Shown here: in pieces, positions 28,896 to 33,129 of the stretch
Layout: each line of letters opens with the position of its first letter
Position numbering within the stretch: position 1 is the first letter of the stretch
Assembly: GCA_017624285.1 (NCBI GenBank)
Contig: JAGANI010000020.1
Coordinates: 1 to 33,213 of the forward strand
DNA length: 33,213 bases
Direction of reading: 5' to 3'
Origin: Clostridia bacterium
GTDB lineage: Bacteria > Bacillota > Clostridia > Christensenellales > Borkfalkiaceae
Translations under genes and position numbers: made by a program
The notes under the pieces: model-generated
Told to the model about the DNA's origin: nothing
Seen by the model: only the letters and a program-made list of their open reading frames with translations
Database searches by the model: none

Positions 28896-29180
28896 CTATA
28901 ATAAATTTAAAAGTTCTTGTTTTAATTTTTCAAGCAACTCGTCAATAATTTCTTCCTTTTTAACGTCTGTTTTTTCTATTTTAGTGTCATAAAGCGACGT
29001 GTTAAGTCTAGGTCGCCCCCTTTTAGAAGGCTTTTTATTAGGGGTGGTCGTAATATTTAAAATTTCATCAATAAGTTGTTTTTTATTTAACGTAGTGGGC
29101 GCTTTAACGTTAAGTTCGTAAGCAAGCTCTCTAAGCGCAAAAATATTCAACTTTTCTAAATCACTTTTGCAGTAATTCAT
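28896..29180 (-). CDS. Small Rho-N/SAP-like protein with AT-hook motif
   Basis: A 94-residue protein. Residues 7-41 (DLEKLNIFALRELAYELNV, then KKQLIDEIL) match the helix-extended-loop-helix pattern of Rho N-terminal / SAP domains, which bind nucleic acid. Residues 49-58 are basic with the core R54-G55-R56-P57, an AT-hook for minor-groove DNA contact. Residues 73-94 form a leucine-rich, probably coiled-coil, helix. It is not transcription factor Rho, since the ATPase domain is absent. The start follows AGGTGA, three bases after the T-run of a terminator, so expression must depend on read-through of the leader RNA at 29193-29386. Function unknown; nucleoid or transcription control is a guess. 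Confidence 0.75.
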   Translation of the reverse strand: MNYCKSDLEKLNIFALRELAYELNVKAPTTLNKKQLIDEILNITTTPNKKPSKRGRPRLNTSLYDTKIEKTDVKKEEIIDELLEKLKQELLNLL

Positions 29181-29192
29181 AACGTTTCACCT

Positions 29193-29224
29193 AAAAAAAG
29201 TGCGTCAACCGAAGCTAACGCACT
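29193..29224 (-). terminator. Terminator just before the Rho-N/AT-hook gene
   Basis: ACGCACT (29218-29224) and AGTGCGT (29199-29205) form a 7-bp stem followed on the - strand by TTTTTTT. The T-run ends three bases before the Shine-Dalgarno sequence. A nearby TGCGT (- strand, 29232 to 29228) could compete for the 3' arm. Confidence 0.85.
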
Positions 29225-29386
29225 AAAACGCAAACTCCATTGTATGGCGTACAATTTAATAGAAATGACTAATCATTCCCATTTGAAGTTTGCATTTTTA
29301 CAAAATTCTATAATGGGAGTATGTTCAAAAAAAGGGTAGAATATGCCCTTGGTTAGTCATCTCGTAAACTATTAAATTGTACGCCA
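29193..29386 (-). ncRNA. Novel structured leader RNA with terminator
   Basis: Transcribed on the - strand from a predicted start at about 29386. The helix P1 is perfect over 18 bp: TGGCGTACAATTTAATAG (29245-29262) and its complement (29369-29386). Inside come ATGACTAA (29265-29272) with TTAGTCAT (29353-29360), then a junction carrying two hairpins: AAGGG/CCCTT (29332-29336 with 29346-29350) and TCCCATT/AATGGGA (29277-29283 with 29312-29318). The loop segment AGTTTGC (29287-29293) is complementary to GCAAACT (29230-29236), just outside P1, a possible pseudoknot. A terminator follows. I do not recognise a known family. Confidence 0.7.
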
Positions 29387-29391
29387 CCTTT

Positions 29392-29420
29392 AGTATACCA
29401 CACCTAAAAATAATTATCAA
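29392..29420 (-). promoter_or_regulatory. Promoter of the leader RNA and Rho-N/AT-hook gene
   Basis: On the - strand, TTGATA (29420 to 29415), exactly 17 nt, TATACT (29397 to 29392), preceded by TGG as an extended -10. The predicted start falls on the first base pairs of helix P1 of the leader RNA. Confidence 0.82.
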
Positions 29421-29524: not shown

Positions 29525-29785
29525 CTACCTATCGTCGTTTTCAATAAACATATAATCAAAGTTTATTTTATCAATAAAATCGTCGGCGGTAAGTTTAAGC
29601 GAATTAAAACTTTCAAAGCATTCGCGGTGGTAGGCTATAATAATAGGCGTTTCAATATCAAGCGAACGCGCAAGAGTTGAAATATAAAGGTAAAAATCGT
29701 TACTATCGTATTCGTTTACGCTGTTATACGACGCTGTTTTTATAGTTTTATGGTTTTTTATAAGTTTTGCGCTAATTTTAATCAT
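29525..29785 (-). CDS. Unknown 86-residue protein, possibly leaderless
   Basis: An 86-residue soluble-looking protein with mixed strand/helix character: MIKISAKLIKNHKTIKTAS then a central YLYISTLARSLDIETPIIIAYHR. No motif is recognised. It is divergent from rex, with 45 nt between the two starts. No Shine-Dalgarno sequence precedes the ATG, only a run of T. A TTGCAA-17-TAGAAT promoter places the start site on or next to the ATG. It has a dedicated terminator, which supports a real gene. Confidence 0.65.
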   Translation of the reverse strand: MIKISAKLIKNHKTIKTASYNSVNEYDSNDFYLYISTLARSLDIETPIIIAYHRECFESFNSLKLTADDFIDKINFDYMFIENDDR

Positions 29786-32034: not shown

Positions 32035-32066
32035 CAGGAAGAAATTAAGTTTTCTTCCTGTTTTTT
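32035..32066 (+). terminator. Terminator inside the left end of the IS
   Basis: CAGGAAGAAA (32035-32044) pairs with TTTCTTCCTG (32051-32060), followed by TTTTTT on the + strand. The orfB stop codon lies in the loop. It would end transcription coming from the VTC-DUF4956 operon and stop antisense transcription of the transposase. Confidence 0.82.
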
Positions 32067-32836
32067 AATCTTTTAGTGTTGTAAAATTCTAACCAATCTT
32101 CAACAATTGCTATGTATTCTTCTAGATTTGTGATATAATTATTATACAAAGTCTCTTTTTTGAGTATGCTATGAAAACTCTCCATCGGAGAGTCATCAAT
32201 AGGTGTACCTTTACGGCTCATGGAAATAGTGATTCCATTAGCTTCGCAAACGACTTTGTATTCGTGGGACGTGTACTGAAAACCTTGGTCGCTGTGAATG
32301 ATTAGGTTGTGCACGTCTTTTTCTTTTGCTAATGCTTGGTTTAATGTGTCTGTTACGATAGAAAGATTATTAAATTTACTTATTCTATACGCAACAACTC
32401 TTCTATCATATAAATCAATTATTGTGGACAAATATGCGCGTTTGTTGTTAAAGATTAAATAAGTTATATCCGTTAACCAAACCTTGTTTTTAATATTAGT
32501 TTTAAAGTTGCGTTTTAATAAATTAGGTTTAACGTTTTCTTCAATACGTTTAGCATTGTAGTTTGGTCTAATTCTCTTAATATATTCTGGTTTTAAGGCA
32601 TATTTTGCCATAATACGTTGAACTTTTTTGTGATTAAATATTACACCATATTTAATTAGTAAGCCATCACATATCCTACGATATCCATAAGTTTTCTTGC
32701 TTTCATCAAAGATCTCTTTTATTAGAAGATAGTCGTAATAATCTTTATCTTGAGTATTACGATATTTGTAGTACGTTCTCTTGTTAATTTCTAAAGTAGC
32801 ACACATATTGTCTAATTTGTAATCTTTGATATGCAT
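32045..32836 (-). CDS. IS3-family transposase OrfB (DDE domain)
   Basis: A 263-residue rve-type integrase core. The catalytic triad is D123 (WLTDITYL), D183 (HSDQGFQYTS) and E219 (DSPMESFHS), with the DD(35)E spacing of IS3 elements, then K226. HTH_21-like sequence (YGYRRICDGLLIKYG) precedes it. The usual C-terminal SPxxYR segment is missing; the frame ends NTKRLKNRKKT within the terminator hairpin. The frame is -1 to orfA and open from the orfA end, so a fused OrfAB is expected by slippage at the AAAAAG near 32850. Confidence 0.92.
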   Translation of the reverse strand: MHIKDYKLDNMCATLEINKRTYYKYRNTQDKDYYDYLLIKEIFDESKKTYGYRRICDGLLIKYGVIFNHKKVQRIMAKYALKPEYIKRIRPNYNAKRIEENVKPNLLKRNFKTNIKNKVWLTDITYLIFNNKRAYLSTIIDLYDRRVVAYRISKFNNLSIVTDTLNQALAKEKDVHNLIIHSDQGFQYTSHEYKVVCEANGITISMSRKGTPIDDSPMESFHSILKKETLYNNYITNLEEYIAIVEDWLEFYNTKRLKNRKKT

Positions 32837-32847
32837 ATTGATAAAGA

Positions 32848-33129
32848 TTACTTTTTCTCTCGTTGTGCTTCTATGAAGGCGCGGAATTTTTTTAGTATTT
32901 CATATCTTTCCTTGTAGTCTATATTTTCTTCTTTTGGTCTGCCTTTCTTTTGATATCCTAACGGAATATCTTGTTTATATGCGCTTATCCAAGTTTTAAT
33001 TGTGTTGCGAGTAATACCATATTCCTTTGCAAGTGAATTTTGACTTCCCTGTCCAGATAAATATTTATCTAATATTTCTTTTCTTTGTTCTGGTGTGTAT
33101 TTGTTAAATTTTTGTCCTTTTTTTGCCAT
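32848..33129 (-). CDS. IS3-family transposase OrfA (helix-turn-helix)
   Basis: A 93-residue protein with a helix-turn-helix (RKEILDKYLSGQGSQNSLAKEYGITRNTIKTWISAYK, about residues 16-52 in parts) that binds the inverted repeats. GRPKEENIDY marks the start of the leucine-zipper-like C-terminal part. The start follows AGGAGG. The stop falls just after an A-run where -1 slippage would lead into orfB. Confidence 0.92.
   Translation of the reverse strand: MAKKGQKFNKYTPEQRKEILDKYLSGQGSQNSLAKEYGITRNTIKTWISAYKQDIPLGYQKKGRPKEENIDYKERYEILKKFRAFIEAQREKK

Follow-up and report, generated by a model that had tools for sequence, protein, structure and literature searches.

Transcription-terminating riboswitches are the closest described systems. 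They share with the leader RNA analyzed here a structured 5′ domain with its own promoter, antiterminator and terminator helices that exclude each other, and a Shine-Dalgarno sequence and gene directly downstream. Unlike them, the present family has a control strand sequestered by a loop-linker pseudoknot of 14-15 bp, an unusually conserved terminator sequence, a promoter distance that is fixed in most members, and functionally diverse genes; it is often present more than once per genome, at times in tandem. The c-di-GMP riboswitches (GEMM-I and GEMM-II) regulate scattered genes of Clostridia, including those for surface proteins, but members of the present family that were tested gave no Rfam match to a c-di-GMP riboswitch, and several carriers have no detectable GGDEF domain. 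In the RNA antiterminator sites of BglG/LicT, the antiterminator hairpin overlaps an intrinsic terminator. In contrast, the present family has no obvious RAT-like consensus, possesses a large upstream P1-P3 domain with a pseudoknot, and precedes genes that do not belong to sugar operons. The raiA motif (ModT RNA) is similar in size to the present family, which differs from it in being multi-copy and cis-linked, in carrying a terminator/antiterminator switch, and in giving no raiA/ModT match in Rfam among the members tested. raiA/ModT is described as a structured noncoding RNA that occurs in Clostridia and in other Bacillota (PMC11706538).

Scanning the window, the main members and the tested subtypes against Rfam gave only tRNAs above the gathering score. 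Below it, at E-value thresholds, there was no convincing match, and the sub-threshold hits look like chance. Neither the Rfam 6S models, a match to which would have refuted the preliminary description of this locus, nor those for T-box leaders were matched; a UGGN bulge or specifier loop lay outside our systematic search. We found no paper on the family in the literature, with subscription papers and preprints outside the search. The family is apparently undescribed, and our best reading is that it is a new, orphan family of transcription-attenuating leaders in which ligand and protein control remain undecided. From sequence analysis, and without transcript, termination or ligand data, we consider it probable that the window element and its family are cis-acting transcription attenuators, each a leader RNA with its own promoter.

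Layout of the element

The window is a stretch of 33,213 nucleotides from a Clostridia bacterium (contig JAGANI010000020.1). The element lies on its minus strand, which the preliminary description did not specify, and reads from 29420 to 28896 in the order promoter, leader RNA, terminator, Shine-Dalgarno sequence and Rho_N gene (Table 1). The extended -10 with 17-nt spacing, the long helix at the RNA start, the inner helix, the two junction hairpins, and the terminator followed by the Shine-Dalgarno sequence of the downstream gene had all been described, and all are present in the sequence or its fold. A pairing of 7 bp between 29287-29293 and 29230-29236, offered as a possible pseudoknot, turned out to be real and to belong to a longer one, with 14 pairs in the family alignment and 15 bp in the window copy. 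Two features had been missed: the antiterminator, and the multi-copy nature of the element, which has two further copies in the same genome (three in total).

Table 1. Features of the leader element and its gene in the window.
Feature	Position	Strand	Evidence
-35, TTGATA	29415-29420	-	sequence
Spacer between -35 and -10	17 nt	-	sequence
Extended -10, TGGTATACT	29392-29400	-	sequence
Whole promoter	29392-29420	-	sequence; promoter box conserved in the family
Leader RNA, 192 nt	29195-29386	-	covariance model R1, 132.8 bits; fold z -8.9
P1, 5′ arm	29369-29387	-	pairing statistics, 101 members
P1, 3′ arm	29245-29262	-	pairing statistics, 101 members
P2, 5′ arm (inner helix of the preliminary description)	29353-29361	-	fold; native versus foreign arms
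P2, 3′ arm	29263-29272	-	fold; native versus foreign arms
Junction hairpin, AAGGGCATATTCTACCCTT (the GGGAUAAUUAUACCC element of the family)	29332-29350	-	sequence similarity across members
P3 hairpin, apical loop with pseudoknot strand	29275-29319	-	fold; native versus foreign arms
Pseudoknot strand 1, AAAATGCAAACTTC	29285-29298	-	pairing and compensatory changes
Pseudoknot strand 2, GGAGTTTGCGTTTT, common to the antiterminator	29225-29238	-	pairing and compensatory changes
Antiterminator strand 1, ACAATGGAGTT	29233-29243	-	pairing statistics in the family
Antiterminator strand 2, AGCTTCGGTTG, within the terminator	29206-29216	-	pairing statistics in the family
Intrinsic terminator, GTGCGTTAGC UUCG GTTGACGCAC and seven T	29193-29223	-	pairing statistics
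Shine-Dalgarno sequence (AGGTG) and start codon (ATG)	29178-29192	-	sequence
Controlled gene, 94-aa Rho_N-domain protein with RGRP (AT-hook-like) motif	28896-29180	-	Pfam

The leader fold is far more stable than its dinucleotide shuffles, none of 200 being as stable, and the Rho_N match of the 94-aa protein scores 28.2 bits against a Pfam cut-off of 24.9. In this copy the first antiterminator strand has one bulged position relative to the consensus CAAUCGGAGUU, and the local hairpin P4 is imperfect. Its energies are lopsided (pseudoknot -18.7, terminator -14.8 and antiterminator -6.7 kcal/mol), so the window copy may be largely switched off, or it may be partly degenerate. Between the leader promoter and a divergent Rex gene lies an 86-aa open reading frame (29525-29785, minus strand) without a Pfam match, and near the window end two open reading frames (32045-33129, minus strand) resemble, by eye, an IS3-type transposase pair.

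A multi-copy family with competing helices

Altogether, 263 distinct relatives of the leader were collected. When 61 relatives were searched at the DNA level, 25 genomes gave matches, frequently more than one each. Once aligned, these matches displayed a single architecture in which the helices vary and the loops are conserved. The covariance search in related genomes that had been proposed for this RNA likewise recovered relatives: model R1 matched 91 of 151 genomes in the host's family, 62 of 297 in its order and 92 of 391 in its class. In a phylum-wide draw of 299 genomes the window's own genome was the sole match. These genome counts are lower bounds, with few candidates per genome scored; deep scoring of five genomes gave 7 to 12 copies in each. 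Antisense hits of the model, arising from the palindromic P1, were left out. Carriers with a name are mainly metagenome-assembled genomes from the guts of ruminants and other herbivorous animals, under labels such as Clostridia and Oscillospiraceae. Viral spread was considered and rejected, as merely three viral contigs were found, apparently bearing one same element.

The structure was evaluated on 101 members (set A5) found by the covariance model rather than by exact motif, to avoid bias. P1 was paired in 96.6% of cells, with 11 of its 14 pairs changed on both sides, and the terminator in 98.3%. In the joint test of P1, pseudoknot and terminator, 264 cells were changed on both sides, versus 52 in shuffles. 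The pseudoknot (consensus AAAAUGC-AAAUUCC with GGAGUUU-GCGUUUU) was paired in 94.9% and 97.4% of cells in its two halves, about 96% overall, and alone accounted for 22 cells changed on both sides versus 4.5 in shuffles; sliding one strand lowered pairing to 37-58%. The antiterminator, CAAUCGGAGUU with GACUUCGGUUG, was paired in 94.2% of cells (18-54% when slid), with 30 doubly changed cells versus 6.9 in shuffles; for example, a change from A to U or G at column 243 is mostly accompanied by A or C at column 293. P4 (GAAUUUG/CAAAUUC) is the least conserved helix, at 90.5%. Compensatory changes, the absence of which would have spoken against the preliminary description, occur in large numbers in P1, in the pseudoknot, and in both the antiterminator and the terminator.

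P2 and P3 are too variable for column statistics and have no pairs in the covariance model, and chimeras were used instead: their arms form a median of 23 pairs natively versus 5 when combined with other members' arms. Shuffle controls do not model relatedness; therefore the slid and chimera controls carry most weight. Divergent subtypes of 134-185 nt occur across the class, with the same plan and different sequences, and in them the pseudoknot and antiterminator sequences have changed together. Across 45 such RNAs, the native partner beats the foreign one for both the pseudoknot (Wilcoxon p = 1e-8) and the antiterminator (Wilcoxon p = 3e-7). In subtype L230, the antiterminator consists of CAUGAAGAGA with UCUCUUCAUG, and by eye the pseudoknot is altered to match. 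Within a genome, a pseudoknot strand pairs better with its partner in the same copy than with that of another copy (p = 3e-7); trans pairing between copies remains possible. Over all members, the median energies are similar (terminator -14.7, antiterminator duplex -13.5 and pseudoknot duplex -17.3 kcal/mol).

The promoter is conserved as well. In 249 of 252 members, the 22 nt that precede the RNA contain a TANNNT box; it carries a TG extension in 173 and ends exactly 5 nt before the modeled RNA in 167. As separate observations, minimal forms of about 100 nt (L234:607-706 and L235:590-689) keep P1, antiterminator and terminator and are without the P2/P3 domain or pseudoknot loop, yet are found upstream of genes, and a triple tandem leader precedes a gene at L364:1501-2105 (G688 C138:35008-35612), with copies of about 157-176 nt separated by about 58 nt.

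The proposed attenuation mechanism and its signal

The pseudoknot joins the P3 loop (AAAAAUGCAAAUUCC) to the strand directly before the terminator (GGAGUUUGCGUUUUU). GGAGUU is required by pseudoknot and antiterminator alike, and the loop side of the terminator by antiterminator and terminator alike. As these three helices use common strands, they compete, an arrangement that matches an attenuator equipped with an anti-antiterminator. We hypothesize that, once the pseudoknot has formed, the terminator would form and the gene would be off; this direction is inferred. If the pseudoknot were prevented, for example by P4 holding the loop strand, the antiterminator could form and RNA polymerase would read into the gene. 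The balance may be shifted by a signal; the simplest candidate is a small molecule that the P1-P3 domain binds, as in a riboswitch, and a protein or another RNA could also serve. With many copies in a genome, scattered genes for accessory and surface proteins would come under one signal. Against an attenuator stand the imperfect P4 of the window copy and its antiterminator, weak relative to its terminator, the low conservation of P4 compared with the other helices, the tandem copies without a gene between them, and some members with no obvious gene.

The leader had been called riboswitch-like; this name fits, and the preliminary interpretation is supported in its core. A conserved structured domain in the 5′ leader, one criterion for a riboswitch, is present; a second, a mutually exclusive expression platform, is met by the shared, covarying strands, with no data on switching in the cell. 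Ligand binding is without biochemical data, and the family is possibly a riboswitch class. A fuller form of this proposal, which we put forward only tentatively, is a riboswitch class widespread in Clostridia, often in several copies per genome, that answers to a small-molecule signal of the whole cell, one different from c-di-GMP, and uses the pseudoknot/antiterminator switch to govern genes for surface proteins and accessory functions as a single dispersed regulon. The doubt about c-di-GMP rests on the GGDEF distribution: in the host's family only 16 of 101 genomes gave a GGDEF domain, and none was detected in several near-complete carriers (for example G003, G006, G009 and G013), making this ligand unlikely. 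The regulated genes have no common pathway, which is unusual for metabolite riboswitches. An abundant regulatory RNA of gut Clostridia without an Rfam model would mean that a tier of regulation acting on surface and accessory genes has escaped notice. The three-way switch is defined well enough for immediate testing, and identifying the signal would reveal what is sensed by these bacteria, most of them uncultured.

Downstream genes and alternative readings

The genes behind the leaders are diverse. Lipoprotein-like products, called by a simple lipobox rule, make up 65 of 204, compared with 102 of 796 background open reading frames (p = 9e-10). Pfam scanning of 143 products returned BspA-type leucine-rich repeats (LRR_5, 19), zinc ribbons (about 7), the Listeria-Bacteroides repeat (6), EcoRI methylase (4) and Rho_N (4), followed by a long tail of single families. 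With products this diverse, the Rho_N gene of the window is one cargo among many, and the earlier suggestion of control by the gene product does not hold as a general explanation. An attenuator could still respond to an RNA-binding antiterminator or stabilizer protein instead of a small molecule. A diverse regulon, as for a global regulator, and the conserved loop sequences and terminator loop side would suit this sub-case; the gene product cannot be the general regulator, since the downstream genes are unrelated, and the elaborate P1-P3 domain resembles an aptamer. We regard protein control as rather unlikely, and the present data cannot separate it from a ligand switch.

The position of these genes weighs on a reading that does without attenuation, namely a stand-alone, multi-copy small RNA of about 200 nt that acts in trans or binds a shared protein and whose terminator leaks into the next gene. 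It would account for the RNA's own promoter and strong terminator, the well-conserved loops, and the tandem copies without an intervening gene (about seven cases in the main set). However, of 243 evaluable members 168 (69%) have a gene start no more than 40 nt downstream of the terminator, versus 6% for random positions, and on the upstream side the figure is 0 of 165; moreover, a covarying antiterminator would be useless to a purely stand-alone RNA, leaving this reading quite improbable.

A mobile, MITE-like palindrome carrying promoter and terminator by chance would explain the copy number, the long inverted repeat and the location of some copies at contig ends. We consider it very improbable, because the P2/P3 arms vary between copies yet remain complementary and the orientation before genes is fixed; in the copies read, similarity spans promoter to terminator, with no common flanks by eye. 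Ribosome-mediated attenuation through a leader peptide is scarcely tenable: many members have an ATG that overlaps the start of the RNA, but its frame stops are widely scattered (median 14 codons, often 3), an internal Shine-Dalgarno-led frame of at least 6 codons occurs in only 31 of 254 members, and no frame is conserved. A 6S-like, RNA polymerase-binding RNA has a similar size, a long closing helix and its own promoter in its favor, and can practically be set aside given the absent Rfam 6S match, the many copies per genome, and the antiterminator/terminator switch with adjacent genes.

Several further cargoes recur behind the leaders. Rho_N-domain proteins like that of the window follow leaders at L293:527-817 and L310:492-821, the latter below the cut-off. 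Small cysteine-rich proteins, mostly of about 56-75 aa and with the pattern ...G.EL.PGN.GKDCPGNGENGNECCCDECNY..., are found in different genomes (L357:1273-1479, L348:1307-1483, L353:1722-1928, L090:5961-6128 and L100:6665-7033); the two that were scanned have no Pfam match. Finally, SLOG/YpsA-like proteins lie behind the leader in several genomes (L274:1459-1980, L146:5525-5851 and L164:3232-3684), one confirmed by Pfam YpsA and the others identified by eye.
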